DNA from: Pseudomonadales bacterium
Lineage (GTDB): Bacteria; Pseudomonadota; Gammaproteobacteria; Pseudomonadales; Azotimanducaceae
Assembly: GCA_022822135.1 (NCBI GenBank)
Contig: JAJECH010000041.1
Location: forward strand, 1-64,000
Length of the DNA stretch: 64,000 nt
Direction of reading: 5' to 3'
Shown here in pieces: positions 18,447-47,285 of the stretch. The notes beneath the pieces are model-generated. The model worked only from the letters and a program-made list of their open reading frames with translations, was not told the origin of the DNA and searched no databases. The translations under genes and the position numbers were made by a program. Every line of letters starts with the position of its first letter. The stretch's first letter is position 1.

Positions 18447-19297
18447 TAAATATGATCGCCGCGGTCGAGACTCTCCTTGATTCGAGTTAGTTCCAAGATC
18501 ACGTCGTGGCTCGCTTTACTTCCCACACACGCTTTCAACAGGTCGATAGGACGCGGTGTGGTATTGCCTGGATAGACCACAGTATTAAGGAAATACCAAG
18601 CGCCTCTGTGATCCGTATACGGTTCGCCGTCAATCGCTTCTTCCGTAAACATCCCCAGTACGTCTGGAATACCGGTAATCACCGTTCCGTCAACGAACTG
18701 TTCTGCAGGGATACGAAGCGCATTCGTAAACGCGCGAAAGCCAAGCACTTCGTTCTTGTCTACTTTTCGCGTGACGGTTGACTTTGCAACTCCCAGCAAA
18801 TTCGCCGCCTCGGAAGCAGATAGGAACGTACCGTCTCTCGTTTCCGATAGGTGAATCGTGGCTAACGGTTCCGGAACCTGCCCTTGAAGAGCTGCCAAAT
18901 CCTCACCTTCAAGAGACATTGCTTGACTAGCATTGAGCGTCACGTTCCCAGAGTCGTCAGCCACGAGATCAATGCTTGCGACAGCAGCGAGAGCCTTCTC
19001 TCCGCTCTCGGTGTTTGATAGCGAACTAAGGATGTCTAGCGAAGTTGCGGGAAAGTTAACTGCGTTCGCTAGCTTCAGGCATACATCTTTGATTTCTTCG
19101 CCTTGAGGTATCGAGGACTCGACCATCGCTGATAGACGGTGATCGTTCGATTTGAACATTCGGACGCGAACAACCTTTAAGGCGAGAAATACTGCCAAAG
19201 CGAGTCTCCGTTGAGACGGCTCGAGCTCATTTAATTCGGTAATGTACGCCTCAAGGGTCGAGATCGGATCCTCTTGTTCTGCGTGGGTCGTGGTCAT
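18446..19297 (-). CDS. Antitoxin of the RES toxin, with an excisionase-type helix-turn-helix
   Basis: The 283-residue product has a helical N-terminal half of unknown fold. At about residues 158-200 it has LSASEAANLLGVAKSTVTRK and then ALRIPAEQF, a MerR/excisionase-style helix-turn-helix. The C-terminal part contains AWYFLNTVVYPGN, then PRPIDLLKA and a final helix, which fits the toxin-binding domain of Xre/MbcA/ParS antitoxins. These antitoxins bind the RES toxin and repress their own operon. Most are about 120-160 residues; this one has an extra N-terminal region of roughly 140 residues. Confidence 0.7.
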   Translation of the reverse strand: MTTTHAEQEDPISTLEAYITELNELEPSQRRLALAVFLALKVVRVRMFKSNDHRLSAMVESSIPQGEEIKDVCLKLANAVNFPATSLDILSSLSNTESGEKALAAVASIDLVADDSGNVTLNASQAMSLEGEDLAALQGQVPEPLATIHLSETRDGTFLSASEAANLLGVAKSTVTRKVDKNEVLGFRAFTNALRIPAEQFVDGTVITGIPDVLGMFTEEAIDGEPYTDHRGAWYFLNTVVYPGNTTPRPIDLLKACVGSKASHDVILELTRIKESLDRGDHI

Positions 19298-20914: not shown

Positions 20915-23900
20915 TCAACGAAAAGAGGAGACGTTGGTTAGGTGCCCTGTGGGGTTAGTTAATAAACCCATCACTACGATGGGTTGGTCGGTTGATACGC
21001 CAATAACCCATGCACCTGCCCCAGGGCCGAGCGACCCGGTTAATCCTTCCTCTCCTTGTTCCAGAGCACGCACTGAGATATCTCGTGAGGTAAATGCAGC
21101 AAGCGTTAGTCCTATCCTACCGGAACTGTATTTGTGCTCTTCATCAAATCCAAATATCGTCACTGGCACGTCTGAAGACCCCGTATTGATGAGCCGAAAC
21201 GAGCTGACGTAATCGGTGTTCCCCACCGGAGTAACGTACGGTACGAGATATACACCGGAACTGTTTCTTGGCGCGAAATCGTGCATGTTTGAGAGCAGTG
21301 CGTCATTCCGAAGGTGCGTATAGGCTAGGACGATGACGTCAAGCGCAGTCGTCAGTTCCAACCACCAATTACCTTCGCCCGAGCCCGTGCCGGGGGACAG
21401 ACCTATCGCGGTATTTCCCATCTCAAGATCGTGAGAACTGAATTCGACCGTTTCTCCCCTCCCGATTGTCAATGTGGTCATGCGAGCTTCTAAATCTGTA
21501 TCGTCTCGAGCCGCGATTTGAATCGTTCCGGGATCGCCTTTGTTAATCACACGAACAAGCCCCTCAACCGATGACGGGTCAGACGTCGTCGGCAAAAAAG
21601 GAACGAGGTGGACCGATTCGCCGTCGTCAGTCTGCGATATGCTGCTGGCGCCGATCGACAGGTTTGTGATATATCCTGCCGAGTTTTTCATTAAATTGGA
21701 GACGGCCAAATTCTGATCGGAATTTACGAGCAAGCGCCATCTACCCTGTCCACTGCCCAACGCTCCGTTTAAACCATCACCCGACTCTAGATCCTGAGCG
21801 CTGAGCGTACGAGAAGTACCCGGTTCGAGCGTGACACTGACCTTACCCGGCGAAGTCGTACCTTGATCATCTATCCCTTCGATCGTTACATTGGCTGTGG
21901 TCGAATCCAAATTGATTAACCTTAAAAGGCTGATTTCGTCCATGTTTTCCGCGGGATTGAATATCGGAACGAGGTAACCATCCGACGACTTTGAAACGAG
22001 ATCGTGCAGATCAGCGATAAAGCCTTCCTCAGTACGTGCGTAAGTTCTAACGAAGAGGCCGTCACCGCGGACCTCGATCCTTTGATCGCGATCATCGATT
22101 CGATCCCGTAGCCGCCGTACGGTGTGTTCGCGCATCACGTCTTGCAAATCAACACGCCTCGTTGAACCGCTGATAATGGAAAATGGCACGGAGACGCTTC
22201 GACCCGCATCATCGAAAACGTTTAAGTGTCCGACTCCGTACTTTCCGAAATTAAAAATCCGTAAGAAACTCTCTCGAGTCTGATTCAAACTGTCTGGAAA
22301 AAAGGGAACGTGCGTGACCAGACCGTCTGGGTCTACAATGATTCCGGTCGCGCTACTGCGTTCGATTTTCACCCCGCCGCCACCACCTCCGGGAGTCGTA
22401 AGCGTAATCGAAACGCCCTCGACCGACTCCGAGTCGTCGTCGATATTCGTAGGTAGCACGACCTCAGCAAACGTACTGCGTGCTGACACCTCCAACTTCC
22501 CCGCGCCACTATCGACAAAGTCTGCACCTTCTTCGGCCGAAAGCGCGTTTAGGCTGTAAGGCACCTCGAGATCTTCGGTTGATGGCAAGTCGAGAATGAC
22601 GGGAAATATCAACGGCTGACCTTCGATCGCGGCGCTCGCTAATATGGACATTTCGATATAGGTAATTGTGACGCCTAATGATCTCAGCGTTGGGATACCA
22701 GTGTTTAGCGTCTCGTCATTGAGAGGATTACCAGTGATGTCCAACGTGTCACGATTGGTTAAGGTATTTCCTGTTATTAATGGACTAACGTCAGCGATGT
22801 TGTTGTCAGCGAGGTCAATGTACCTAGACAAGAAAGTGGGTAGTGGCTTAAGCCTACTGAGCGGTTCAATGTCCTCAATCTCATTGTTCGCAAGATTGAG
22901 ATACAAGAGGAGTTCAATGTCTGCTAACGCATCAATACTTGATATGCGGTTATTCCACAGGTCGAGAATTTGGATGAGTGTTAAATGTTCAAGAGGTCCG
23001 ATGTCCTCAATTCGGTTGTTCGCCATTTCCAATCTCGAGAGTTGCCGAAGGTCTGCGAGAGGCGTGACATCGACAACCGCGTTGCTGTTTAGGTTCAGCC
23101 TGTTTAGGACTTTGAGATTCGAGAGCGCACCAATGTTGGTAATCTGGTTCACTTGAAGATCTAAGTGTCGCATTGCGGAAAGTTCCGCGAGCGGGTCGAG
23201 ATCTGAGACGAGGTTGTTCGCTAAATTGACAAATGCCAAATGCTCAAGGTGTCGCAACGGAGACAGATCACTGATCGCATTACCAAAAAGATCTAGTGTG
23301 ACTAACTGATCCAGATTCGCCAGTGGCGATATGTCCGTAATGCCGTTGGCAACGAGCGAGATCGAGCGTAATTTGACAAGTGGCGCTAATTCCGTTAGAT
23401 CGGTGAATCCCGCGGTGTCGATATGCAGTTCACGAAGGAACGGGAGTTTCCGTAGCGGGGTCAAGTCGGTCACTGGATTGCTGTTAAGCCACAGCTTTTC
23501 TAAACGAGGTAAGTGGCGAAGCGGCGTCAAATCCGCGATTGCGTTGGAGTGAATAAAAACAGAACGTAGGTTAGTCGCAGATTCCAATCCACTCAGCGAC
23601 TCGATGTCCCTCCCCCAAGCTCGCAGCTGGGTTAACCTAGTCATGTCGGTCAGCGAGATCGGGTCGTGTTGTAGCTTGTGGAGTTCGAATCGGACCGCGT
23701 CTTCAAGTTGCGGGTCGACGAAAGTCGGTTCGCCGTCATTGTCCGTGATGGTTCCGGTCGCTAGCTCTTGGTCGACACGAATCGCAACTCCCGCATCCGC
23801 CAGTTGACCGGTATTGAGCAGACGTACGGAGAACGTATCGTCGCCGTCGACCACGGCGTCGTCGATTGACTCCACGTGAATCTTCGCGTTAGTTTCGCCC

Positions 23901-25780
23901 GCTGGAATCGTTACGAGCGAAGTTTCATTTAACCGGTAATCAACCCCTTCGGACGATTGCGCGGGGAGCACCTCAAACCTGATCTCTACGTCGGAAGGTC
24001 GGCTCTCTGACAACGTTACGTCAAACGACACGGGCATTCCTTCAACGTTTTGAGCATTTGCGATGGACACGGTCGGTCCAACGGTCACGCGTAACCCAGT
24101 AGAACAGTTGTTGGCTACATCCTCTTCGTCAGGAGCGGAATCTATGCATAGACCGTAGTAGTGATCGCCGAAATCATCCGGTGCGACAAGATCGATCGAC
24201 TCAATGATCACACTCCTTCCCGGAACATCTTGCAAATCGATTGTTCCCAATACAGAATCTTCAGATCCGATGGACGCATCGCTCGATCGGTACCAACGTC
24301 CTCCGATTGCGGTTGAGTCGATACCTCCTTGATTGGCAATCTGTGCCTCGATCGTAAAAACGTCGTTAGGCTGTAATGTCCTGACGTCGATTGTGGTTTC
24401 GACACGGAGATCGGTAACCTCGGAGTTGTATTCGGCTACCTCCCAACGCACTTCGTTAAGGAAACGTGCGGCATCTGCTGGTCCTCCCGCTCCTTCATTC
24501 TCTGTGTCGACGCCGACACCTAAGGGGTCTCCGAGGTGCTGGTGTTCTGCATTAGAGAACCGCGGCAACAGCGAGCAATCGATTGAAACCGAATGACACT
24601 GTGAGGAATACGCCATGATCGTATGCCAGCGGCGTAGATTGTCCGCGGAAGGGGCGAGCCCCGCTTGGTTGACATAGCCATGAAAATATACCGAGTGCGG
24701 CGTACCCGGATACACGAACCGGTCGTGTTGAAGACCCATGTTGTGTCCGATTTCATGTGTCGCGATCATGGTTCCTGCGTAGTACACAGCCACGCTGAAC
24801 GTGTAAACCTCCCCTTCTGCTAAGCGCATATCGTCTGGCATATAGGCGGTTCCGCCAATATTTGAATCTGCCAATTGAAGATGTACTACATCTGCGCCGG
24901 TTGCGTTGCGCCATTCGTGAATGATGTCCATATAGCCGTCGCCGCGTCGTCGAAGTCGATCCAGATCAACCTCACCATGACCGGTCTCCTGATAATCAAC
25001 TTCACCCGTGCGTGTAAGGAACAGGCGCATGTCGACGCCGCTTTCCTCAAACGCGTGGTTGGATTCAGCGATGATCAGGTCCATAAGTGCTTCTACCGCA
25101 CGCTCCCCTCCCATCGCTTTGCGGACAGCAGGTGTGAAAACCAGAAGAGTGTCGACGACCGCGATACCCTCACGTGACGCTGCCGAGGTGCTCCGTGAGA
25201 CTGCGATACGCGAAGGTCTCTTTGAAGCCGTATCGTTGGACCCCATTGACCCTTGATGTGCTGGTATAGGTTCACCGAGAGGAGGAAGGTCAGATGGATC
25301 TACTTCTCGAATGTAAACGAAACCTCTCCCAGCCGGATCGATAGAGTACGTTCCTGTGGGTGTGCGAACGGTACCGATCACTGTGTCGTCGTTGACGACC
25401 AACGTGACGGTCCCAAATGGAACGCCAACTAAGCGTCCGTTTAGCGAGTAGCCTCTTGCGGTCTGTGTGGTGCGAATATCCTCTACATCCCAAGCCGCAT
25501 CCTGAAACAGCTCCAGCTTGAACGATGCTCGGCCTTCGTGTTCCCTTTGGTGAGATGTCTGAACTTCCCGCAGTTGCGAGAAAGAAACCCCGGCATGACG
25601 TTCTCGTAAAACGGTTCCTCCTCTTACGCGGTGATGGCCTCCTTTTGTGGTGTCTTCCTCGAGTGTAAGACCCGACTTAGCAGTGGTCGGTGAGTGGTTG
25701 AAGAATACGCCTGATTCTTCACCGGAAATGGTGAGTGCCGGAAGAAGCGCTATTGAGAAAATACGTAGCAGGTTCTTCAT
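20915..25780 (-). CDS. Secreted zinc metalloprotease with Calx-beta, SDS22-like LRR and C-terminal repeat domains
   Basis: The ATG at 25780 (MKNLLRIFSIALLPALTISG) gives a typical signal peptide and about 1621 residues. A propeptide-like region comes first, then a reprolysin-like (M12B) catalytic domain with HEIGHNMGLQHD at about 342-353, the zinc motif HExxHxxGxxHD. Next come a CARDB-like segment, a Calx-beta domain (about 560-690), some 14 leucine-rich repeats of the 'L..L..L.L..N.I.D..PL' type (about 700-1050), a second Calx-beta domain, and three copies of a roughly 130-residue domain with 'LVPF...G..RVIN...G' strands. It probably cleaves extracellular proteins while bound to a surface or matrix. 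The 23-nt motif lies 34 bases before the start. Confidence 0.8.
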   Translation of the reverse strand: MKNLLRIFSIALLPALTISGEESGVFFNHSPTTAKSGLTLEEDTTKGGHHRVRGGTVLRERHAGVSFSQLREVQTSHQREHEGRASFKLELFQDAAWDVEDIRTTQTARGYSLNGRLVGVPFGTVTLVVNDDTVIGTVRTPTGTYSIDPAGRGFVYIREVDPSDLPPLGEPIPAHQGSMGSNDTASKRPSRIAVSRSTSAASREGIAVVDTLLVFTPAVRKAMGGERAVEALMDLIIAESNHAFEESGVDMRLFLTRTGEVDYQETGHGEVDLDRLRRRGDGYMDIIHEWRNATGADVVHLQLADSNIGGTAYMPDDMRLAEGEVYTFSVAVYYAGTMIATHEIGHNMGLQHDRFVYPGTPHSVYFHGYVNQAGLAPSADNLRRWHTIMAYSSQCHSVSIDCSLLPRFSNAEHQHLGDPLGVGVDTENEGAGGPADAARFLNEVRWEVAEYNSEVTDLRVETTIDVRTLQPNDVFTIEAQIANQGGIDSTAIGGRWYRSSDASIGSEDSVLGTIDLQDVPGRSVIIESIDLVAPDDFGDHYYGLCIDSAPDEEDVANNCSTGLRVTVGPTVSIANAQNVEGMPVSFDVTLSESRPSDVEIRFEVLPAQSSEGVDYRLNETSLVTIPAGETNAKIHVESIDDAVVDGDDTFSVRLLNTGQLADAGVAIRVDQELATGTITDNDGEPTFVDPQLEDAVRFELHKLQHDPISLTDMTRLTQLRAWGRDIESLSGLESATNLRSVFIHSNAIADLTPLRHLPRLEKLWLNSNPVTDLTPLRKLPFLRELHIDTAGFTDLTELAPLVKLRSISLVANGITDISPLANLDQLVTLDLFGNAISDLSPLRHLEHLAFVNLANNLVSDLDPLAELSAMRHLDLQVNQITNIGALSNLKVLNRLNLNSNAVVDVTPLADLRQLSRLEMANNRIEDIGPLEHLTLIQILDLWNNRISSIDALADIELLLYLNLANNEIEDIEPLSRLKPLPTFLSRYIDLADNNIADVSPLITGNTLTNRDTLDITGNPLNDETLNTGIPTLRSLGVTITYIEMSILASAAIEGQPLIFPVILDLPSTEDLEVPYSLNALSAEEGADFVDSGAGKLEVSARSTFAEVVLPTNIDDDSESVEGVSITLTTPGGGGGGVKIERSSATGIIVDPDGLVTHVPFFPDSLNQTRESFLRIFNFGKYGVGHLNVFDDAGRSVSVPFSIISGSTRRVDLQDVMREHTVRRLRDRIDDRDQRIEVRGDGLFVRTYARTEEGFIADLHDLVSKSSDGYLVPIFNPAENMDEISLLRLINLDSTTANVTIEGIDDQGTTSPGKVSVTLEPGTSRTLSAQDLESGDGLNGALGSGQGRWRLLVNSDQNLAVSNLMKNSAGYITNLSIGASSISQTDDGESVHLVPFLPTTSDPSSVEGLVRVINKGDPGTIQIAARDDTDLEARMTTLTIGRGETVEFSSHDLEMGNTAIGLSPGTGSGEGNWWLELTTALDVIVLAYTHLRNDALLSNMHDFAPRNSSGVYLVPYVTPVGNTDYVSSFRLINTGSSDVPVTIFGFDEEHKYSSGRIGLTLAAFTSRDISVRALEQGEEGLTGSLGPGAGAWVIGVSTDQPIVVMGLLTNPTGHLTNVSSFR

Positions 25781-25814
25781 GTCAAGTATGAAGTGAGTCA
25801 CCTATTTACATAAA

Positions 25815-25837
25815 GATTCTAAAGAATATAAAATGAA
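25815..25837 (-). promoter_or_regulatory. 23-nt shared upstream motif, copy 1
   Basis: Read towards the metalloprotease gene the site is TTCATTTTATA plus TTCTTTAGAATC. It differs from the sites at 29094 and 34617 at only a few positions, and ends 34 bases before the start codon. The sequence around it is AT-rich, with a further direct repeat. It could be a transcription-factor site or part of a promoter. Confidence 0.65.
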
Positions 25838-26164
25838 TATAAAGAGAAATAGGATATATTAGAATGAATATAAAATGAATTTAGGGTATTACGGTCAAAA
25901 TTCACCCTCGCTCTGAGTCAGTGTAATGTTCAAACCATGCCGTGAAACATTTTCTGACCGACAGCAACCCCACGACGAACGCAGCGCGCGTCAACTCTAA
26001 CTAGACTCTAATTTCCATATCCGTCGCAATGGAAGACGAGTTCGCTTAACAAAGCGAATCAACAGACAACAATTACGCCTCAGATTTGCACCATTGAGAT
26101 ACGAAAACCACGGTCACGAGAAATCTGTGAAGGCTGCTACGGTTTGGGACGCTGGAATGAGTCT
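25838..26164. other. AT-rich upstream region with internal direct repeats
   Basis: No gene. The 15-base string GAATATAAAATGAAT occurs twice, at 25824-25838 (overlapping the 23-nt motif) and 25866-25880, within a strongly AT-rich stretch from 25810 to 25890. The rest, up to the stop of the next minus-strand gene, has ordinary composition and nothing recognisable. Confidence 0.5.
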
Positions 26165-28897
26165 CTACCTCTTTTCTAACGCAGCCTCCGATGAGTCCGC
26201 CGTTTCCACCAATCTCAAGATCGGTTTTTTGGCCGTATTACGGTAGTTGTAGTGTTCCCACGTCTCATTCGTACTGAAGTTGCCTCCTCGAACAACGTGA
26301 AGTAACTGCATCGAATTCTGAACCTCTATTAGAATCGTTTCGGTGAAGTCGTAGTTCCTTTGATTCCGAGCTCGATCATGCGTACGCATTGATGCGAGTC
26401 CCCAATTCCCAGGAAGTGAGCCGGGCGGAAGGATCCAATTCGCCTGCCGCTTGTACCATTTATTAGGTTCGGTTCTAGGATACAGAGAGAAGGGATCGGG
26501 TCCTTCGTGCCATTGAAAATGTTGTCCACCTAGTGGGTCACGAAGGCGCATTGCGACATGTCGGAAGCCAGAGTTATCATCTCTGATGTAGAACGTGATG
26601 TTGACGATCGTTTCACCATTTGGTTGCTCAGGGTTAGTGGGTTCGGCGTCCACGTAAATCCTATTTATGTCGATTTCAGCCGGTGTCAGATCGGGATTCG
26701 AAGTGACAAGAGCCAAGGTTTTTATTGGCTCATTTTCACCGTTAAATGTGGTTCGCCCTTGGTTTAAGCCAGAATCCGTCATTACAACAAGCCGGAGCGA
26801 ATATGTCGCAGTCGGCATGTATTCTGGCATGACGAATTCAACCAAGCACACACCGTCTTCGTGGTCTCCAAAATGATCGTAATAGTAGGAGTTATCCGTT
26901 GGAATCGTCAGTCGCGCATAACACGGCGCGTTGCTTTTCATGGTTCCGTCTTCATCGACCTGCCAAGTAACTTCAATGACTTGAATGTCATACTCGACGC
27001 CATGTTCGGTTACTGTTTCGTCCCGCTTCGCCAATCGTGCTGATCCAGGGACGTAGCGAGGTTCGGTGTAGTCTTCAAGTGCGTTGTCAACGTACATCTT
27101 CCAACCGAAGTCGTTGTCGCGTTGGTAGCGATTGTTGCCCGCTAGATCTCGAATCACCATCTGAAGCGGATACCAGTACCCAGCCTTAGCCTCCTTTGGA
27201 ATAACCTTCGAACCAAATAGCACAATGCCTTCATCTATATACTCGCCATTCTCGTCGATTGGATACAAGTACAAATCGATGTGCGTTCCAATGTCGTTCG
27301 TGATCCGAGTGTATGCGTGCGACGCACCTTCCTTCTCGAAATCTATTGCATGTAGCTCAAGCGTGACATTCAATTCCTTGTCCGCTTCAGACTCACCGGC
27401 AACTTCGATATCAATGCGTTTTATCTTGCCGGGAAAGACATAATCGGGGAATAGGTTGTAAACCTCGAACTGCAAATCCTCGCGAATCTCCGACACGTAG
27501 ATATTGCCTTGCATTACGCGGTCGCGAACGAAATCGTATTTAAGACTCGCTCGGCTCCGGAGGACATCAGGATTAATAACAAAATCTGCAACCGATTCCG
27601 CCATATCTTCATTCGGATTCTTTAAGTGAGCGTATGCAGAGACGAACTGAGTGGTTAATGTTGTTGACCAGCCCGATCGAGCATTAGGATCTTCGTACCA
27701 TCCACCTAACTCGATCCAATCTGCTTTCAATTGATCATCGAAGACATGTGACCAAAGGAAATGAGACTTTTCGTGAAGAACAAGGCGGTGAATATCGTCG
27801 ACTGAAGCATTAAAAAATGCGCTGTCCATGAACTCAACGTACCCTTGTTCTGGCCACGCGACCGCAGGCGCTGTCGGATAGAGGGGATGTGGCATTCCGT
27901 CGATTCGGCGTATAAAGTATTTCAATTCCGGAATGACATGAAATCCTCGCGGCATGTCCTGTAGTAGATTGATGATCTGTACTAGCTCCTCGGAGTGAAA
28001 CGCTTGAAAAGAAGCGCTTGTTTCGCCCGTTGTTGGTCCGGTAAGAGCCGCATAGTCTCGAACCATCTGAGACATACCGAAGTTTTCATTCATGATGTGT
28101 TCGACTCGGTCTCGATCTCTACCTCTGTCAGTGATGTAACGCGTGACCGCATGATGCAATCGATTCGAATACCAAAAACCACGTTTACCGTCAACTTCGA
28201 CGACACGAGGATTCGCATTGACGAAAACAGCATTTGAAATACGAACAGAGCTGCTACCGTCGTTGTTAGACTCGATTTCGATATCGTTATGGAGTTCATC
28301 TTCGGTGATCGTCCACTTACTTTTATTCAGATCGTGTATAGGGATCGAGTCAAAGGTCATGAGTAACCTATATGCATGTTCATGCGACCAGGTCATTTCG
28401 TCGTTTACCAATGAGACATCGAATTCGCGTTCAAGCTCTAGCGATGCAGCGGTATCAACAATCGCGTACTGACGATCCAAAAACGTTACCTTTCGCGGCG
28501 TAGCGACACTGGCGGAATACTCAAAGCCGGCAGTACTTTGATCTTCTTCCCAATGAAACACGAATGGCTGCGTGGCAATCATCTCTAATCGAAACGGCTC
28601 CTCTGGTTCGTGTAGAGGGATGGTGACAATTCGCGCCGGTGTCGTCTTATGACCGGGCGCACGAACCTTAACAGCGTACTTCCCAGGCGCGACATCCTCG
28701 AATGTAAATTTGCCGGAGGTATCCGGTGATTCCACTCTCAAAACGCCTCGTGTCTCGAGGATGACTTCAACTTCTGAGGGGGAGCTTTCGTAACCTTCGA
28801 CGTAGCCATCGAAGTCTTCTGCGAAGACCGAAAATGTCAACAACACGAGAAGGGACACAGTCGTCGTCAAGAGAGTATGTTTCGGTTTCACCATCAT
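26165..28897 (-). CDS. Secreted protein with carboxypeptidase-regulatory-like domain and HExxH motif
   Basis: AGGAGGTGA lies eight bases before the ATG at 28897 and fixes this start over the upstream GTG. The product has about 910 residues: signal peptide (1-27), then a transthyretin-like domain (about 30-105, with YVEGY and GKYAVKVRAPGHKT). The central region carries LVLHEKSHFLWSH at about 372-384, an HExxH zinc motif, followed by DWIELGGWY; the rest contains Ig-like beta domains with 'Y.L..V...D..G' strands. It is probably an exported zincin-like protein, but the motif alone does not prove proteolysis. The 23-nt motif lies about 200 bases upstream. Confidence 0.7.
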   Translation of the reverse strand: MMVKPKHTLLTTTVSLLVLLTFSVFAEDFDGYVEGYESSPSEVEVILETRGVLRVESPDTSGKFTFEDVAPGKYAVKVRAPGHKTTPARIVTIPLHEPEEPFRLEMIATQPFVFHWEEDQSTAGFEYSASVATPRKVTFLDRQYAIVDTAASLELEREFDVSLVNDEMTWSHEHAYRLLMTFDSIPIHDLNKSKWTITEDELHNDIEIESNNDGSSSVRISNAVFVNANPRVVEVDGKRGFWYSNRLHHAVTRYITDRGRDRDRVEHIMNENFGMSQMVRDYAALTGPTTGETSASFQAFHSEELVQIINLLQDMPRGFHVIPELKYFIRRIDGMPHPLYPTAPAVAWPEQGYVEFMDSAFFNASVDDIHRLVLHEKSHFLWSHVFDDQLKADWIELGGWYEDPNARSGWSTTLTTQFVSAYAHLKNPNEDMAESVADFVINPDVLRSRASLKYDFVRDRVMQGNIYVSEIREDLQFEVYNLFPDYVFPGKIKRIDIEVAGESEADKELNVTLELHAIDFEKEGASHAYTRITNDIGTHIDLYLYPIDENGEYIDEGIVLFGSKVIPKEAKAGYWYPLQMVIRDLAGNNRYQRDNDFGWKMYVDNALEDYTEPRYVPGSARLAKRDETVTEHGVEYDIQVIEVTWQVDEDGTMKSNAPCYARLTIPTDNSYYYDHFGDHEDGVCLVEFVMPEYMPTATYSLRLVVMTDSGLNQGRTTFNGENEPIKTLALVTSNPDLTPAEIDINRIYVDAEPTNPEQPNGETIVNITFYIRDDNSGFRHVAMRLRDPLGGQHFQWHEGPDPFSLYPRTEPNKWYKRQANWILPPGSLPGNWGLASMRTHDRARNQRNYDFTETILIEVQNSMQLLHVVRGGNFSTNETWEHYNYRNTAKKPILRLVETADSSEAALEKR

Positions 28898-29729
28898 CGC
28901 GAAAATCACCTCCTAAATTGAAGCTGCCAGGTGCCTACGAAACACTCAAGTGAGGATCGGCAAATAATCCGAAAGGGGACATCGAAAACTCCCGATCGCT
29001 CACTCGAAGTGGTAGGTATCAAAGACTGCGCTAGTGGAGCAAACCACTCTAGATTCGTCATGTCGTTTTACATCGCGCAATCGATATAAAACCTGATTCT
29101 AGAGAAAATTAAATGAATTAGTAAAGAAAAAGAACCTTTATTAGTGAATTTAATAGGAATTTAATGAAAAACCTAAGATGTTTTGGTCCTTTTCACTTCT
29201 GAAACAAGGTATAGAAGAAACTGACGTCAAACCTCGATAGCAACACGAAAACGGCCCGGTCCGCTATGGATCTAAAAACACGTGCTACGCATTGTGGACC
29301 AGCAACCTGTCTTGTTCTACAAGATTGCGGCCCTACTCAGAAAACACAGAACAGCTAATCAGTAGAAGCAACGAGAGTCGAGAGAGAAGACACTAATTAA
29401 CGATCGCGATATTTCCGACTAAAAACGCATCTTCTACTTTGTTATGTGGTCGGTTCGTACTGATTGACTCTTACCACGTGTCGATTGAGAACCTACTTCG
29501 GATCTGCAACACTAAGAGACAGTGCGAGGGTCAAACGGAAATCAAGTGGCCACTACCAGAGAACGGGACCATAACCGTCGGCGATGGCCAGCTAAAAACT
29601 GAATATTCACACATTATTCACTATTTAGATTTTCCTTTCTAAAATAATTCATAATTTTCTGCGTAATATTTCGCAACTAGGTGTGCACAAGAAACACATG
29701 CCTTAATCATTTTCATTTAGGAGAGTGCG
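28898..29729. other. 830-base divergent intergenic region
   Basis: It separates the minus-strand HExxH gene from the plus-strand pair at 29730. It holds the second 23-nt motif (29094-29116) within an AT-rich block to about 29175. A 67-codon frame at 29439-29642 has no ribosome binding site or family resemblance. No tRNA or hairpin stands out. Confidence 0.45.
29094..29116 (-). promoter_or_regulatory. 23-nt shared upstream motif, copy 2
   Basis: Read towards the HExxH gene the site is TTCATTTAATT plus TTCTCTAGAATC. It is followed on the far side by more AT-rich sequence with TTCATTAAATTCC and AAATTCAC, echoing the repeats around copy 1. It lies about 196 bases before the start codon. Confidence 0.6.
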
Positions 29730-30071
29730 ATGAGACGAAATATTGCAGCGTGGATCGTCGTTGGAGTCGCGATAGTGTTGGTCCAGTCATCCGTATTTGC
29801 TTCAGGTTCCATTCGGCCAGGTGGCACCATTAGTGCGCGCGACGCCTACACTCAAGGTAAGGCGTTGACTTTTCAAAAACTCGTGTGTGCGTCTTGCCCG
29901 ATTTCGAGCGGTGAGTTGAATCGTGATCGCGCAATCAGCTTGAAAAACAGCCTTGAAGCTAGAGACGAGAGCGACAAACCCGGCACGCCAGACGACGAAC
30001 ATATCAAAGTTCTCGATCGAGATGAGCAGGAAATGGTGCACTACTACTTGCTACGCCGATTCAAGCTGTAG
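29730..30071 (+). CDS. Small exported protein with a CASC motif (decayed cytochrome-like site?)
   Basis: The ATG follows TAGGAGAG at good spacing. The 113-residue product has a signal peptide (about 1-25, ending VFASG). The mature part has ALTFQKLVCASCPISS with Cys at 53 and 56, and a charged C-terminal half ending YYLLRRFKL. The position and wording recall the start of small c-type cytochromes (KLxCxxCH), but the heme-binding His is replaced by Pro, so covalent heme through CxxCH is not expected. The two Cys could form a disulfide or bind metal. The barrel gene follows 24 bases later, so the two are probably one operon. Confidence 0.7.
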   Translation: MRRNIAAWIVVGVAIVLVQSSVFASGSIRPGGTISARDAYTQGKALTFQKLVCASCPISSGELNRDRAISLKNSLEARDESDKPGTPDDEHIKVLDRDEQEMVHYYLLRRFKL

Positions 30072-30095
30072 CACGTTAATAGAAGGAATAAAGAA

Positions 30096-31013
30096 ATGAA
30101 CAAAGTAAGAATCTATCTTGCTATAGCGACAGCTGGCTGGTTAACCACCGCACCTATTGTGGAGGCTGACGGGTCCGTATGGCTTCCCGCACCTGGGAGC
30201 GGCACGATGACGATGTCATACGTATCTCAATCGGCGGACAATATGTGGGTTGGCAAGAACGGACCCAACCCTATACCTTTTCAAGGTCTGGATCAAAGTA
30301 CCGTGACGCTCAACGGCACGTACGGATTCTCTGATGCTGTTTCAGTGGATATCAGTGTGGGTAGATCCGAAGTCTCTCCGAAGCATGGTAGACCGATTCC
30401 TCTTGAAACTGATGGGATCACGGATACAGAGGTAGGACTTACGTGGCGATTTCGTGACGAAATCGTAAGCGGGGGACCGAGCGCCGCGGTTCGGTTCGGT
30501 GCCGTTATTGCCGGAAATTACCCGACAGGAGGTCCGGGACCTGCTGAGATCGGGGGTGATCCAACGCGCGTTGGTGCTGGTCCTACTGCGATCGGGGACG
30601 GCGCGAGTGGAATCGAATTGTCAGGTGTCGTCGGTAAGGTCTTCAATAATCGCGTAGCACTATCCGCCGAACTAGGCATTCGAAACCGTTCGGGCGATGT
30701 GCCTCGGGAAACCTTTATGAACTTCGACGCGCACTTTATTGTCGGTGAACACCTCGTACTTAGTACCCAGTACCACATTCAATCGTCGTCAGGTGATATT
30801 GATATCGGTCCGCCGCCAGGACCTGGTGCACACGGAAGGCACTGGGATCAGTTCCCGAATGTGGCAGAAGACGTCAATCGCGTTTCCGTTGGCGGCACGC
30901 TACTGTTTAATAAAGTCGATATCGGGTTACATTGGTTTAAGGTGCTTGATGGACGAAACACGGCTGAATTCAAAGCGTTTGGCGGCACACTAACGTACAA
31001 ATTCAATCGTTAG
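30096..31013 (+). CDS. Outer-membrane beta-barrel protein
   Basis: AGAAGGAATAAAG precedes the ATG. The 305-residue product has a signal peptide (about 1-25). It then shows alternating amphipathic strands across its whole length, such as TLNGTYGFSDAVSVDISVGR, EVGLTWRFRDE and RVSVGGTLLFNKVDIGLHWF, with Gly/Pro-rich loops (GGPGPAEIGGDPTRVGAG). It ends in LTYKFNR, so the usual terminal aromatic is not the last residue. It resembles the transporter/MetA-pathway group of outer-membrane channels, but the substrate is unknown. It is expressed with the small Cys protein upstream, which may be its periplasmic partner. Confidence 0.75.
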   Translation: MNKVRIYLAIATAGWLTTAPIVEADGSVWLPAPGSGTMTMSYVSQSADNMWVGKNGPNPIPFQGLDQSTVTLNGTYGFSDAVSVDISVGRSEVSPKHGRPIPLETDGITDTEVGLTWRFRDEIVSGGPSAAVRFGAVIAGNYPTGGPGPAEIGGDPTRVGAGPTAIGDGASGIELSGVVGKVFNNRVALSAELGIRNRSGDVPRETFMNFDAHFIVGEHLVLSTQYHIQSSSGDIDIGPPPGPGAHGRHWDQFPNVAEDVNRVSVGGTLLFNKVDIGLHWFKVLDGRNTAEFKAFGGTLTYKFNR

Positions 31014-31105
31014 TCCTTAACCTTAAACAAAATTCGTGACGCTCGGTCGTCATCGCGACGGTGAAATACGCGAAAGAGACGCAAACTACAAGATTGTGAA
31101 CAGTC

Positions 31106-31849
31106 TCATTGATTTCTCTGTCTCTTACGGGATATCGAATCTTGCATCACGAGTTTCACGATCATTCCGAGGATACCGATGCTAGCTAGTACGACGCCTC
31201 GGACCGTACCGCCAATTTTGGATTTGCCATACTTCCTTTTGAGGGTGTCAACAGGGACTTCAACGACTGTCATTTTGTGCTGAAGCGCTTTGATCTGCAT
31301 CTCGATGGTCCAGCCGAATGTCTCGTCCGTCATCTGGAGCTTGGTGAGAGCTTTAGAGGTAATTGCCCGAAAGGGACCAAGATCTGTCGTCCGTTGTCGC
31401 CAAAGCAATCGAATCAATAACCCCGCCACCTGATTACCGACGACTTGAGGCAGTGACAGTGCGCCTGGTTCCATCTCTCCGAGAATACGGGATCCGATGA
31501 CGAGGTCGGCACCTCGCTCGATCGTCTGTAGTAGGAGAGTCGCTTGTTCTACTTTGAATGCTTGATCGCCGTCCACAAACAACACGACATCAACGGGTTT
31601 TAACGCCGCAATCGCGGTCAAACAGGCGATGCCGTATCCATGCTTGCGTTGACTAACCACACGAGCGCCGGCTTTACTGGCTCGTTGCGCGGTTGCGTCA
31701 TTCGAGTTGTTGTCGCAAACGACGATGTCATCAATCAAACGATTTCCGTCTGGACCACGCAGTGCAACTAGATCTTCAACTACCGATGCGATGTTGTCTT
31801 CTTCATTTTGCGCGGGAATGACCGCCCCAATGCTTGAGTTACCTAGCAC
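31106..31849 (-). CDS. Family 2 glycosyltransferase (dolichyl-phosphate-sugar synthase type)
   Basis: The GTG start at 31849 is the only one that keeps the N-terminal strand. The 247-residue product reads IGAVIPAQNEEDNIASVVED, then DIVVCDNNSNDAT, then VVLFVDGDQ with the nucleotide-sugar-binding DxD, and later TTDLGPFRAI. These are the standard blocks of GT-A fold family 2 enzymes that transfer a sugar from a nucleotide donor to polyprenyl phosphate or a similar acceptor. A single hydrophobic segment lies near the C-terminus (about 218-235), enough for a membrane association. It is monocistronic. Confidence 0.8.
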   Translation of the reverse strand: MLGNSSIGAVIPAQNEEDNIASVVEDLVALRGPDGNRLIDDIVVCDNNSNDATAQRASKAGARVVSQRKHGYGIACLTAIAALKPVDVVLFVDGDQAFKVEQATLLLQTIERGADLVIGSRILGEMEPGALSLPQVVGNQVAGLLIRLLWRQRTTDLGPFRAITSKALTKLQMTDETFGWTIEMQIKALQHKMTVVEVPVDTLKRKYGKSKIGGTVRGVVLASIGILGMIVKLVMQDSISRKRQRNQ

Positions 31850-32169
31850 TTTCTAGCCATGGTAGTTTCTGATACTCTTTTGTTGAGGTTGCCTCGTTCA
31901 GGATTCATAAATAACAGGAGGTGCTACTCGAGAACGCATGACAACACGGTGAATTCGTTTAACAGATCTCGCAATGACATTAGGATCAAAGTCCGACGAT
32001 GCCTATTGCCCAGGATATGAATTCACGGCCCAAATTGCTGAAGAACTAAGAATCGTACCGGCAACTCCTAAATCTCGTCGGCTGTTGAACTCCCGCATTG
32101 GCGATGTTCGACGTGATGATCTGCACGTCGCGATTGCCCTTTCTGATTCGATTTTCGCGGGAATGAACG
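31850..32169. other. Intergenic region between the glycosyltransferase and sensor genes
   Basis: About 320 bases. An 81-codon plus-strand frame (31974-32219) overlaps the end of the sensor gene and shows no family signal or ribosome binding site. Nothing else was recognised. Confidence 0.35.
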
Positions 32170-34497
32170 CTAACCGTCTTCGGGACCCGGCATGTAGTAT
32201 CCGACTCCACGTTGGTTAAAAATCCAACGCGGATTACGAGAGTCGTCACCTAACTTGCGACGAAGTTGCTTAACGAATGCTCGCACTAGGTCGTCGTCGC
32301 CATCGCCACGCCAGACGCGGTGTAGGAGCGTGGCGTACGTTAAGACCCGACCTGCACCAAACGATAGTACGCGCAGGAGATCAAATTCAGTCGCAGTGAG
32401 CTCGACTGGTTCCCCATCCACGGAGATTCGACGTTCGTCGTACTGAATTGTCAAACCATTCAATTCGAACGGTACAGATCCGCCACGTCCCCGTAACGCG
32501 ACCCGGATTCGTGCCACCAATTCAGTAGGCGAAAATGGTTTGACAATGTAGTCTGCCGCTCCGCTGTCGAGTGCTCGTGCGATCGTCGCATCTCTTCCGT
32601 AGGCTGAGATGAAAATCACAGGTAAGCTGGCAAGCTCGGTGTTGTGCTGCAGTAGCTCGATACCATCCATGTCTGGAAGCACAAGGTCGAGCAATACAAG
32701 ATCGGGTTTTTCCTTCTCGATCAGCTTCGGTATATCGTGATGGTCACCCGTCACTAGCACAGTGTAACCGGATTCAGACAATGCCTCACGGACGAATCGA
32801 AGTGCTTGCGGATCGTCATCGACTACCAGAATACGTGCCGACTTGCCATCGTTCTTACTGTACCGTGGCTGTTCTAAGTTGTCGAATGGTGTCCTTTCTG
32901 CTTCGGTCGCTACAGGTACTGTAAACGTGAAACATGCGCCTTGCCCAACGCCTTCGCTCTCCACACTGATACGTCCTCCATGCGCTTCGACAAGCCCTTT
33001 ACAAATGGAGAGACCAAGACCGCCGCCGACACCTCCTTTATCTCGTCCTGAGTGTTTTTGGAACAATTGAGTTAAGTGTTCAGGTGCGATGCCACGACCT
33101 TCGTCTCGGACCGAAATCGCTACATGGGGACCATAACCGGAAGCACTAATGTGAATTGGAGAGGTTTCTGGTGAATGACGCGCGGCGTTCGTCAATAGAT
33201 TTGTCAACACTTGCTGGATTCGTCGTCGATCAGTCATGACACGAGGCAGGTCTGGTGCTATGTCAATCGAGATTTCGTGACGTCTCTTACCACTTAGGAA
33301 CGTGTTGCGCGCCCTGTCCACCAACGCAGATACTTCGGTTGGTTCAGGAGAAACTGAGAGCGTGCCTGCATCAATACGTCCTGCGTCAAGCAAATCGCTG
33401 ATCAAACTGCGCATGTGTTCCGCTTGTTCGATGATGATGCGGAAAAATGCGCTCATCTCAGCTCGGTCGAGGGTCGCAACTGTGCCATCCAACGTAACAG
33501 CGGATCCAGTGATTGCCGCAAGAGGTGCACGCAACTCATGACTCACCATGTCGAGAAACGCTGCGCGCTGCTGATCGAGTTCTTCAAGTGGTGCAAGATC
33601 CTGCATGGTCACGACGACCGTATCGACATCACCGTTTGTGGATTCAATAGGCGTCACGTTGACGAGTGCGGACACGTCTCGCCCCTCTGGAATCGAAAAC
33701 ACAATCTCCTCAGCGCGCAGCATTTTCGCACTCGTAAGCTGGTGTGCTAAGGGGAGCTGACCCAGCGCGACCTCACGACCGTCAGCGAATCGGCATGTCA
33801 TTGAGTCAAGTAAGTGTTCGACAGGGTTTCCCGGTGTTCGCAGAGTTTCGAAGATCCTTCGCGCCTCATGGTTGAACGAGGTAACTACCCCGCTTCGGGC
33901 ATCGCAAACCGCTACGCCAATCGGTGAGGTGTCGATCAGAGCTTCAAGATCAGCGCGAGTACTTTGCTCGGCTTGATGCGTGCGCGCGTTGGCGATCGCT
34001 ACCGCCGCCTGCGACGCGAACAACGTCAGAATCTCTTCGTCTGCGTTGCTGAACTCGGTTCCTTCGTCTTTTTCCCCGACAAAGAAATTGCCGACATGGA
34101 TCCCTCGGTGCCGCAAAGGCATACCGAGGATGGGCACGGACGGCATGAGGTCGGTCGAAAAGCCGAGCTCGCGCACCCACTCGGCGATATTCGTCAATCG
34201 TAGTGGCTCAGGGAGATCGCGCATGTATGCAAACAGGTGTGGTCCGTCGGACCAAGTCGCCATACCGTGGCGTTCCCCCTCGGAAAAACCAATGCTGATG
34301 TACTCAAGAACCTCACCCAGTTCATCCACCGTCGTGATGATGCCGCGACTGGTCGAGGTAAGTGAACATGCGCATTCGACGACCTCTTGAAGAACCGTGT
34401 TGAGATCTAGGCTTTCGTTGATACGCAAGATCGCCGCACTGAGACTAGAGATGCGTTGCTCAAGTTCGTCGATCCGTTGTTGTTGCGCTGCCGTCAA
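32170..34497 (-). CDS. Single-chain two-component regulator: GAF-PAS-histidine kinase-receiver-winged helix
   Basis: The 775-residue protein has no membrane segment. In order: coiled coil (5-25), GAF (about 25-172), PAS (about 183-303), HisKA with SHELRAP (His320), ATP-binding domain with N box (Asn437), DEGRG (465-469) and GGGLGLSICKG, then a receiver domain (about 555-665; VVDDD, phospho-acceptor Asp604, Lys653), and an OmpR/PhoB winged helix (about 675-770; LTATEFDLLR, VKQLRRKLG, GVGYYM). Sensor, kinase, receiver and DNA-binding output are thus in one cytoplasmic chain, which should sense a small ligand or redox state and bind DNA directly. It is divergent from the 34913 gene and shares its upstream region, so that gene is a natural candidate target. 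Confidence 0.9.
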   Translation of the reverse strand: MTAAQQQRIDELEQRISSLSAAILRINESLDLNTVLQEVVECACSLTSTSRGIITTVDELGEVLEYISIGFSEGERHGMATWSDGPHLFAYMRDLPEPLRLTNIAEWVRELGFSTDLMPSVPILGMPLRHRGIHVGNFFVGEKDEGTEFSNADEEILTLFASQAAVAIANARTHQAEQSTRADLEALIDTSPIGVAVCDARSGVVTSFNHEARRIFETLRTPGNPVEHLLDSMTCRFADGREVALGQLPLAHQLTSAKMLRAEEIVFSIPEGRDVSALVNVTPIESTNGDVDTVVVTMQDLAPLEELDQQRAAFLDMVSHELRAPLAAITGSAVTLDGTVATLDRAEMSAFFRIIIEQAEHMRSLISDLLDAGRIDAGTLSVSPEPTEVSALVDRARNTFLSGKRRHEISIDIAPDLPRVMTDRRRIQQVLTNLLTNAARHSPETSPIHISASGYGPHVAISVRDEGRGIAPEHLTQLFQKHSGRDKGGVGGGLGLSICKGLVEAHGGRISVESEGVGQGACFTFTVPVATEAERTPFDNLEQPRYSKNDGKSARILVVDDDPQALRFVREALSESGYTVLVTGDHHDIPKLIEKEKPDLVLLDLVLPDMDGIELLQHNTELASLPVIFISAYGRDATIARALDSGAADYIVKPFSPTELVARIRVALRGRGGSVPFELNGLTIQYDERRISVDGEPVELTATEFDLLRVLSFGAGRVLTYATLLHRVWRGDGDDDLVRAFVKQLRRKLGDDSRNPRWIFNQRGVGYYMPGPEDG

Positions 34498-34616
34498 GAT
34501 TCGGCTCCGATGAGGACTTGATCTACGCCGTTATGAGCATCAAACTTAAACATGCGTGCTACAACCCTTCTAGTTTCACTATGTATTCATTCATTTTAAC
34601 ATATATTCCCTAATAT

Positions 34617-34639
34617 TTCATTTTATTTTCCCTAGAATC
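34617..34639 (+). promoter_or_regulatory. 23-nt shared upstream motif, copy 3
   Basis: The site reads TTCATTTTATT plus TTCCCTAGAATC towards the LRR/Calx-beta gene. It lies in the divergent region between that gene and the sensor-regulator gene, inside an AT-rich block starting at about 34580 (TTCATTCATTTTAAC and TATTCCCTAATATTTC). The distance to the ATG at 34913 is about 270 bases, so either the true gene start is further upstream or there is a long leader. Confidence 0.6.
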
Positions 34640-34912
34640 CATCGGTAATTCGTTGCTAATCAGCGACATTGACCGCTGGACGCGAAGTGATTGGTGATTG
34701 GATACTCGCTCGCATGCCGTGCTGTACTGCAAGAACTTGATCTTCACGACTAGTATGCATTGCAGCTAAAGAAGCAGCGCAGATGGAAGCCCCACATTCA
34801 CGAGTCGCGTTATTCGCTGGCTCTCGACACACTAACTAAGCGAGTTTCTACGGTGCCACATATACACGAATCGAATAGCCAAGTCAACAGAAGCTCGCTC
34901 AATCCGCGGTTC

Positions 34913-37900
34913 ATGCTCTACAAAGGAAGTTCACTACATAAACGACTAAGCACGCTCTCTATTGCGAAGCAACAGTTCGCAATCTTGGTAATTCTGTTCG
35001 CTGCGTCGCTATTAGGTAGTCCCGTCGCATCGGCACAGACATCGGAAGTGTTAGTGAGCAACATCAGTAAGTCATTATTCGATTATTTTGAATTCTTAAG
35101 TGAGGATTTGGCCCAGTCGTTTACAACCGGAACGAACATCGCCGGATATACGCTAGAAAACGTCGAGCTTAGACTAAGAACCTCATCTGGAACTACCCCA
35201 CCCACTATTACCCTCCGCGTTGGTGCTGCTGATGGCAGAATAGTTTCCACGTTCGATGGTCCCTCAGCGTTAACCTTAAACGTAACTGAAAACTACACGT
35301 TTACTCCGGCCAGTACAGTGATTCTCAACAGGTCATCGACATACTGGATTGTAGGAGAAGGCGGAGCCACGGGAGCTACGTGGTCAAGCACTCCCTCGAG
35401 CGACGAAGATGCTTCATCGGCGGAAGGTTGGAGCATCGGTGATAAGTACGAAGCTCGTAGCGCTAGTTCAACAGGATCTTTCGGGTTATCGCCCGACTCT
35501 GTTTCGCTGCGTCTCCGCGTCAATGGCACGATCAACACGGCAACATCAATCCCTTCAAATTGGAGCCTTAAACCGTCCGCGATAACATCGGGAAACGAGT
35601 TCCGTTTGCTGTTCCTCTCCAATACACTACGTGACGCGGATTCGACCGACATCGCGACATACAACACGTGGATTCAAGCTAGAGCCGCCGCAGGACACGC
35701 CGACATTCAGAGCCACAGTTCGGGTTTTCAGGTTGTAGGTTGCACGGCAGATGTAGACGCGCGTGATAACACCAATACGCGATTCACCACTTCTGCCAAA
35801 GGTGTCCCTATTTACTGGCTCAATGGCTCCAAAGTCGCTGATCAGTACGAGGACTTCTACGACGGCTCTTGGGACGACGAAGCCAACGACAAGAACGCAT
35901 TGGGTACGGACGGTCCAGATACGTCGTTAGGAGCCAACTTCCCATGGACCGGGTGCGATCACGATGGTACGGAGAAAACAACCTCAGGAGCTTCGAATGC
36001 CCTCGGCGCTAGTGCTGGTACCTATTTCGGAAGACCGAATTCCACCACGTCAGGTCACGGTCCCCTGAGCGGTGCCGGCGCCGATGGAGCTAATGACGGG
36101 ACTTTCTACGGACTTTCCGAGGTCTTCCGCGCCAATGCCGCCCCCACGACCGCTGATGGATCCGTCACCACGCAGCAGGATACGGCTTACACATTCGTCT
36201 CCAGCGATTTCCCGTTTACCGACACCGACTCCGGAGCGGAACTGCAAAGCGTCAAGATCACCTCCATCCCGGCAACCGGCACGCTCAACCATGACGGCAC
36301 GGCGATAACCTCCGGTCTGTTGCCACGAGCCGTCAGCAAAGCGGACATCGATGCCAATAAACTGACGTACACGCCCGCCTCTGGCGCTTCCGGGACCGTA
36401 ACTTTCAATTTCAAGGTGAATGACGGTACGGAGGACAGTGCCGAAGCTGAGATGACCATCACGATCAACGCGACGACGGTTACCAATCGTCCTCCTGTAG
36501 TGGCAAACGAGATCGAGAACCAGTCGGTGACGGCAGGGAGTCGCCTCAGCTTTACGTTCCCATCGAACACTTTTCACGATCCAGACGTCGGCGACCGCCT
36601 TACCTATCAGGCAACGCTGGCGAATGACTCAGCGCTCCCCAGCTGGTTGTCTTTCTCTCGAGACTCGCGGACGTTCGCCGGTACGCCTCAGTCCTCACAT
36701 ATTGGCACCATTTCAGTCAAAGTGACCGCGAGCGACGGCAACGGGGGGTCGGTGAGTGACACCTTCAGCATCTCGGTCGTCACCGCTGGGAACAGCGTTC
36801 CGGTCGTGTGGTACGGCATTCCAGACATGGAGGCGCGGATCGGGCAAAACTTCCGCTACACGGTGCCTACCACGACGTTCTACGATGCAGATGGTCTTCA
36901 TACGTTGACCTACTCTGCAACGCAAACCGACGGTTCCGCTCTACCCAGTTGGCTGACCTTTACGCCAGGTAACCGCGGATTTACCGGTATACCACAGGCT
37001 TTGGATGAAGGTGACGTCATACCGGTGCTGGTATCGGTCGATGACGGCGATGGCGGGTCCGCCAGCGTGACGTTCACGATCACGGTGATCGATCCGAATG
37101 ACCTGGTCGTGGATTTCGGCACTTCGGCAAGCTCCGCACCCATCACGATCACGGAGGGTGGGGTCTCGCATCACTTGCAGCTCTTTCTCAGCGCGCCGGC
37201 ACCGAACGCGTTAACCATCCCGATCGATGTAACGCACACGGGCGGTGCGACATCGGCGGACTACACCTTGCTTCCGCGGACGGTAACGTTCGCCCAAGGC
37301 GCAACCACGGCGAGTTTCTACATTCGCGCCGTCGCCGACAGCACGACGGAGTCCGGCGAAGGTCTGCGCCTGGACTTCGGCACCTTGCCTTCGAACGTTC
37401 GGAAAGGCACATGGGGTCCCTACGAAATCATCCAGATCGTCGAAGCATTGGACACCCTGATCGTGCGATTCGGCGCCGCGTCGTATACCGCTGTCGAAGG
37501 TGGCGCTGACGCTGAAGTGGCCATCAATCTTCACGCGCCGGTAGATGTTGAGCCTGTCGACGTAGGCTTGGATGTCGCGTACGGCGGCACTGCTTCGGCC
37601 GCAGACCACAGTACGATCCCTTCGAGCGTGAGATTCGCCGTGGGTGAACAGCGAAAGACGTTCACGATATCGGCGACTGACGACAGCGCTAACGATGACG
37701 GCGAAAGCATTACGCTGTCGTTCGTATACGATCATAGCGGTCGCCTGGATACGACAGACTATCCGTCGACAACGACGGTGGCGCTTGACGACAACGACGG
37801 GGTTGCACCCGTCACGGTGTCATTCGGATCGGCGGCTTACACGGCGACAGAAGGTGGTGCCGGTGCGACGGTAAGCGTCAATCTGGACGCCGCGCCTGGA

Positions 37901-47066: not shown

Positions 47067-47121
47067 ATGGATGATCGCGGTTACGTACAACAGAGGACTA
47101 GAACAATTCTATTCTGAAAAA

Positions 47122-47156
47122 CAAACAACAATGCTTGATATATCCATAGTTGTTTG
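47122..47156. promoter_or_regulatory. Inverted repeat in the divergent ImmA/IrrE promoter region
   Basis: CAAACAAC (47122-47129) and its exact complement GTTGTTTG (47149-47156) are separated by 19 bases, with TTCTATT on the outer side of each arm (one change). It sits between the divergent XRE-peptidase genes and is a likely operator for one or both. Confidence 0.65.
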
Positions 47157-47285
47157 AAAATAGAACATCAGGTTAGGAGTTTGCTACTTCAAACCAGGGC
47201 TAATTCACTAGGTTTCTTGAAATACGTAATGCGCGATTTCTTCTTGCGTCTTACGATTTGCGCGATTGAGACACTAAGCTTTCAA

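Follow-up and report, generated by a model that had tools for sequence, protein, structure and literature searches.

The window, a 64,000-nucleotide (nt) stretch of contig JAJECH010000041.1 from a Pseudomonadales bacterium of the Azotimanducaceae (GCA_022822135.1), carries a cluster of genes for exported-looking proteins around a gene predicted to encode a sensor kinase fused to a response regulator. Four sites (c1 to c4) stand before the exported-protein genes, each an exact match to a common geometry of four half-sites at 0/11/31/42 with a -10-like hexamer; in three of them the inner end coincides with a 23-nt motif singled out in the initial annotation. The features are as follows (aa, amino acids; LRR, leucine-rich repeat; ORF, open reading frame).

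20915-25801, minus strand: proposed c1 target, an exported metallopeptidase of reprolysin-like type that also matches CARDB, Calx-beta and LRR; the ATG at 25780 is the likely start
25816-25879, minus strand: c1, TTCATTT/TTCATTC/TTCTCTT/TTCATTT plus TAGAAT; proposed promoter of the 20915-25801 gene
26165-28909, minus strand: proposed c2 target, 914-aa ORF whose start resembles a signal peptide and which has a sub-threshold Pfam match (carboxypeptidase-regulatory-like); ATG at 28897 or 28894, preceded by AGGAGG
29096-29159, minus strand: c2, TTCCTAT/TTCACTA/TTCTTTA/TTCATTT plus TAGAAT; proposed promoter of the 26165-28909 gene
29606-29669, plus strand: c4 (new), TTCACAC/TTCACTA/TTCTAAA/TTCATAA plus TAATAT; proposed to drive 29730-30071 and, perhaps, 30096-31013 as well
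29730-30071, plus strand: proposed c4 target, 113-aa protein with a signal-peptide-like start; no NCBIfam match
30096-31013, plus strand: 305-aa protein whose start resembles a signal peptide, matched by neither Pfam nor NCBIfam; it lies 24 bp past the preceding gene and may belong to the c4 unit as its second gene
32170-34497, minus strand: proposed regulator, GAF-PAS-HisKA-HATPase-receiver-winged helix (Pfam) in a single 775-aa ORF; true start codon uncertain
34575-34638, plus strand: c3, TTCACTA/TTCATTC/TTCCCTA/TTCATTT plus TAGAAT, between the regulator gene and the divergent LRR/Ig/Calx-beta gene
34604-34655, minus strand: overlapping array with spacing 0/11/32/43 upstream of the regulator (p = 0.02, 500 shuffles), sharing two half-sites with c3
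34760-39658, plus strand: proposed c3 target, an exported protein with choice-of-anchor-R, Ig, Calx-beta and LRR; the ATG at 34913 is the likely start

The 23-nt motif had been described as three copies agreeing in 19 of 23 columns with invariant TTCATTT and TAGAATC ends, and recounting confirmed both the columns and the ends. All three copies are real: exact consensus copies lie at 25815-25837 (minus strand), 29095-29117 (minus) and 34617-34639 (plus), the first and third as originally placed and the second not at 29094-29116 as given. Allowing up to three mismatches, 100 dinucleotide-shuffled versions of the window contained no match, and the whole 3.75-Mb genome of the organism (hereafter the own genome) holds the three window copies only, with no scattered matches and none for the reversed control. 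Across 97 genomes (own included) the same threshold gave matches in 11; the 12 sites outside the own genome all have three mismatches and compare with seven for the reversed control. There the 23-mer is hardly above background; the half-sites differ between regulators. An Rfam search of the window found nothing, ARAGORN found no tRNA in it, and a sigma-70 scan of 25000-36000 revealed no excess (12 found, 10.8 expected).

Ungapped alignment of the three sites revealed TTC common to all at -42, -31 and -11 from the 23-mer start, and even two common offsets never arose in 20,000 rounds of shuffling of their 70-bp (base-pair) flanks. The 23-mer is a real conserved element, but it is merely the promoter-proximal end of a longer array. 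The full unit reads TTC-N8-TTC-N17-TTC-N8-TTC-N13-TANNNT, with the hexamer 16 nt past the last TTC start; the 23-mer begins with the inner half-site TTCATTT and, past a spacer, closes with TAGAAT and one further base, TAGAAT being most plausibly the -10 hexamer. When the own genome was searched for this geometry with up to two mismatches, four exact sites were recovered, all in the cluster, none with one mismatch, and five with two mismatches against eight for the reversed pattern. The fourth exact site, c4, had been overlooked because its inner part differs (TTCATAATTTTCTGCGTAATAT); the reading of the motif as a mark of promoters of exported-protein genes is supported, with four proposed target promoters rather than three. 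A looser pattern of three half-sites gave nine matches in the own genome, three of them c1-c3, against four for the control, and outside the cluster it is near background. A variant model with TTCYYTA at +11 as an extra half-site and TA 18 nt past its start as the -10 element was dropped; c4 and sites at two homologous loci (L075 and L113) favour TAGAAT as -10.

Two rival explanations of the motif can be weighed at this point. If the copies were relics of an insertion sequence or of a duplicated promoter with no present function, the 76% identity of c1 and c2 over 71 bp would be accounted for. The similarity, however, stops at the array edge: the 400-bp flanks are otherwise unlike (a c2-c4 match is the overlap of their own flanks), and half-site phase is constant in c1-c4 although the sequence between half-sites varies. 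Because the flanks are alike only in the array, an insertion-sequence origin, proof of which the initial annotation named as refuting its reading, is not supported, and a relic is scarcely credible. The second explanation, a promoter of an alternative sigma factor with conserved -35 and -10 blocks and no activator, would fit the invariance of TTCATTT and TAGAATC in three sites located before genes. These blocks are about 10 nt apart, too near for a usual -35/-10 pair; c4 retains the outer half-sites and not the 23-mer block, three more phased TTC lie upstream, and paired repeats with other sequences recur in the family described below, so that we regard this explanation as very improbable.

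The predicted product of 32170-34497 belongs to the kind of regulator for which such arrays are typical in spacing. Its Trans_reg_C domain (64.9 bits, cut-off 26.2) is C-terminal at residues 695-768 of 775, preceded by Response_reg at 556-665, and the winged helix matches WalR, VicR, RegX3, PhoP and PhoB chains in the Protein Data Bank; the H-box SHELR is present in the alignment. Tandem half-sites 11 bp apart, as in OmpR/PhoB regulators, were found at the window promoters and in 28 of 75 upstream regions of the family. A search of the 97 genomes with the regulator protein returned near-full-length homologues in six including the own genome (44-58% identity, one partial); three of 17 same-genus relatives (G015, G016 and G017) have a homologue, the others giving weaker matches with best E values of 1e-7 to 1e-30. 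Scanning GTDB genomes with a 13-member alignment yielded 562 loci, among the best 80 of which (best-segment identity 55-61%) homologues occur in metagenome-assembled genomes (MAGs) of many phyla.

Some related regulators have peculiar features. In the regulators of L054 (6660-9032), L056 (6584-8956) and L057 (6793-9198, own genome) the H-box histidine is gone (SDELR/SNELR in place of SHELR) and part of the receiver acidic pocket is missing as well, while the arrays of L054 and L056 are still significant; these appear to be pseudo-kinases with an intact operator design. At L058 (own genome, contig C60), AT-rich islands at 5437-5562 and 11680-11793 flank a paralogous regulator, share TATAAAAGTCA and stand before exported-looking genes, possibly a second, separate regulon.

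We examined 75 nonredundant 360-bp regions upstream of family regulators for arrays. Self-match counts by lag were highest at 11 (138), 18 (132), 21 (121), 32 (121), 9 (119), 10 (110) and 22 (105) against a mean of 72; those at 9, 10 and 18 are left unexplained by the array model. The template 0/11/32/43 reached p <= 0.05 by dinucleotide shuffling in 28 of the 75 regions where 3.8 were expected, and ranked first among 98 geometries; the runner-up reached 14/75 and the control geometry 0/10/30/40 reached 11/75. It remained in 26 of 72 regions after removal of the three loci that had suggested it. Upstream regions of other genes gave 17 of 300 (sampled from 669), with 12 at p <= 0.02 against 6 expected. 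Half-site letters vary by regulator (GCGATAT, GAGTGAT, TGATGTT and others) and align to about RYGAWWTTT, the reverse complement of which holds TCRY and may be compared with TTCAT of the window. Position matrices built from each of the 28 arrays and run on their own loci found, at nine loci, 12 extra matches that score higher than any in 20 shuffled copies; of these matches seven are strong (two at L075, one each at L113, L116 and L135, two in the window) and the others marginal or intragenic.

A TANNNT hexamer facing away from the regulator lies 16 nt past the TTC-equivalent in 8 of the 28 significant arrays (mean per offset 0.78; P about 3e-5, corrected for 45 offsets) versus 3 of the 47 non-significant ones, and facing towards the regulator no offset exceeds three. 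A good part of the family arrays therefore look like promoters of the divergent gene. Autoregulation of the regulator had been entertained and was set aside, as the -10 analysis points instead to the divergent gene.

The divergent genes were classified by an ad hoc signal-peptide rule, with no trained predictor, which accepts some membrane proteins. By this rule, among 13 significant arrays with a divergent gene less than 400 bp away, five genes encode at least 800 aa with a signal-peptide-like start, compared with 35 of 1000 random ORFs (P 8e-5); with the window excluded the count is 4/12 (P 7e-4). Divergent from significant arrays are an LRR+Ig+M66-peptidase protein in Latescibacterota (L104), an LRR+Ig+PD40 protein (L115) and a Calx-beta+choice-of-anchor-R protein (L138) in Gemmatimonadota, and an LRR+Ig+choice-of-anchor-R protein in the same genus (L053). 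Genes at such arrays carry choice-of-anchor-R in the window, G017, G103 and G121; the domain was counted four times in the own genome (one with a site), four times in G017, where three copies share a contig with the regulator, twice in G103 (one with a site) and once in G121 (the divergent neighbour of the regulator), and not at all in 14 control genomes.

Sites were also predicted in the genomes of L075 and L113, both gammaproteobacterial MAGs, the latter also containing L116. The pattern WTCAY-N6-WTCAY-N15/16-WTCAY-N6-WTCAY-N11-TANNNT with up to two mismatches, partly drawn from sites already seen there, gave 14 sites (seven exact) and none in the reversed control. Seven of these were previously seen and seven new. 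Judged by eye, 7/14 precede exported products: five of the new sites do, the other two standing before an amine-oxidase-like gene and at a contig end, whereas of the earlier-seen sites two precede exported products, two non-exported-looking genes and three no clear gene. The exported products comprise three related large proteins with open frames of 1069, 1018 and 1166 aa (59% and 48% identical to the first; the 1069- and 1018-aa frames run off contig or locus ends). The other four are a choice-of-anchor-R protein akin to the c3 target (27% over 273 aa, E 4e-14), a protein of 112 aa, one that resembles lipoproteins and weakly matches TbpB, and an outer-membrane protein of Opacity-like type. 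In addition, L075 (about 3930-4080) and L113 (about 12835-12985) are strongly alike for ~110 nt past array and -10 with no large ORF near, which might point to a small RNA or a leader controlled in the same way.

Taken together, the motif is probably the inner part of an operator-promoter through which the single-protein sensor kinase/response regulator encoded at 32170-34497 would activate the exported-protein genes. The winged helix would bind the half-sites as two tandem dimers, with the innermost half-site standing in for a -35 element; the GAF/PAS part would receive a signal, the kinase would phosphorylate its own receiver, and the activated regulator would recruit RNA polymerase and switch the genes on. 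The products, large exported repeat proteins and a protease-like protein, would probably act on a host or some surface. Computation shows the make-up of the sites, their confinement to the cluster and their recurrence; binding, activation, signal and host role we infer from sequence. Much of what had originally been suggested for the motif is supported: a putative regulator-binding site governing a co-regulated exported-protein set is consistent with the confinement of sites to the cluster, the OmpR/PhoB-type spacing, the arrays beside homologous regulators and the exported-protein genes after 7 of the 14 sites predicted in two other genomes, and the neighbouring winged-helix protein, then named as candidate regulator, fits most tests run, with arrays beside its homologues exceeding chance.

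Operators of the same type might serve another OmpR-family regulator, or the neighbouring protein might repress rather than activate. The own genome encodes two further full-length regulator paralogues, binding of the regulator to the sites is a prediction, and c3 overlaps the array upstream of the regulator itself. The four sites nevertheless cluster around the 32170-34497 regulator, its homologues in many genomes are flanked by arrays, and the innermost half-site occupies a position typical of activators; we consider this alternative unlikely. Besides the paralogues, several results weigh against activation of exported-protein genes by the adjacent regulator. An array at p <= 0.05 is lacking at 47 of the 75 homologous regulators, and the pair distance is 31 at c1-c4 versus 32 beside most regulators. 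Half-site similarity tracks the recognition helix weakly (Mantel test: n=28, r 0.23, P 0.01; with 22 nonredundant, P 0.05, and with 18, P 0.10), and no correlation was found with the rest of the regulator protein. Large exported-looking divergent genes occur at 5/14 regulators without a significant array versus 5/13 with one, and these similar rates therefore tie the exported genes to the regulator and not to a detectable array. Three of the four choice-of-anchor-R genes in the own genome are without a site, and G114 has no such gene. Among the 14 sites of the L075 and L113 genomes, three precede non-exported-looking genes and four have no clear gene.

The closest known kind of system is that of the OmpR/PhoB regulators (PhoB, KdpE, WalR), here in hybrid one-protein form: the winged-helix output, the head-to-tail half-sites about 11 bp apart and the innermost half-site in the -35 region are alike, whereas here kinase, receiver and DNA-binding part are fused and two half-site pairs stand 31 or 32 bp apart. 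Streptomyces antibiotic regulatory proteins (SARPs, such as AfsR) also have an OmpR-type winged helix. No Pfam match to the bacterial transcriptional activation domain of SARPs was found past the winged helix of the regulator, which, unlike a SARP, would signal via kinase and receiver. Hybrid two-component systems (HTCS) of Bacteroides have an AraC-type output and a periplasmic sensor and target polysaccharide-use genes; here the output is OmpR-type (Trans_reg_C), the input GAF/PAS, and the targets are exported repeat proteins. The likeness to HTCS (PMC11253607) lies in one polypeptide that combines a sensor kinase with a response regulator (here HisKA, HATPase_c, Response_reg and Trans_reg_C), and that to SARPs, in passages of PMC10936776, in direct repeats spaced 11 or 22 bp, the 3' repeat of which is 8 bp from the -10 element; KdpE sites, as given in part of PMC3264566, are AT-rich 6-bp repeats with a 5-bp spacer.

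The distribution of the regulators suggests horizontal transfer, to which paralogy or mis-binned contigs could partly contribute. By RpoB the own genome is nearest five gammaproteobacterial MAGs (58-63%), the others being as low as 45%, whereas across the same genomes the regulators stay 55-61% identical to that of the window; this comparison has 24 usable rows of 29 genomes, two being without a row and L128, L089 and L069 excluded because the wrong reading frame was picked (15-17% identity). In a tree of 85 regulators the phyla are intermixed, with 13 changes for Pseudomonadota, at least 8 of them forced by starred branches and the 16 rows without a phylum label left uncounted. The locus L126, labelled Gammaproteobacteria, has an RpoB 46% identical to the own one and a regulator grouping with Gemmatimonadota; its MAG is perhaps mislabelled.

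Arrays appear beside related regulators in bacteria of many phyla, and many of these bacteria apparently come from marine sponges. Apart from the MAG names treated next, name prefixes were assigned to the sources that we take them to denote. Names of the form jk18x, which account for 19 of the best 80 of the 562 GTDB loci, follow a scheme used for Ircinia sponge MAGs in passages of PMC9531527, and we infer that RHO, COS, APA and IRC stand for genera of the sponge species named in part of PMC8163846. Elsewhere in the window, two divergent IrrE-like (Peptidase_M78) genes, one with a helix-turn-helix, surround an AT-rich island (47099-47170) at 45834-48330, and at 17805-19297 a RES-domain gene overlaps a 283-aa ORF without a Pfam match, a possible toxin-antitoxin pair.

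Exported eukaryote-like proteins are thought to aid symbiont life with the sponge host, and we know of no answer to how sponge symbionts switch them on; neither a regulator nor an operator was apparent in the literature searched. LRR proteins, enriched in sponge MAGs according to passages of PMC8163846, are among the kinds of protein proposed as targets in the window. For bacteria mostly known from metagenomes, and from sequence alone, the present analysis offers a candidate regulator, a model of its operator at base level and, in three genomes, predicted sites. There is an even chance that these belong to a horizontally spread module of sponge-associated bacteria of many phyla, in which one-protein sensor-regulators and matched direct-repeat operators of fixed geometry and variable letters would switch on the export of host-directed proteases and of eukaryote-like proteins with LRR, Ig, Calx-beta or choice-of-anchor-R, each regulator copy having its own half-site 'address'. 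If so, several regulator copies could run in parallel in one cell. The spacing rule itself can serve for reading the regulons of this family elsewhere, though half-site letters differ per copy.

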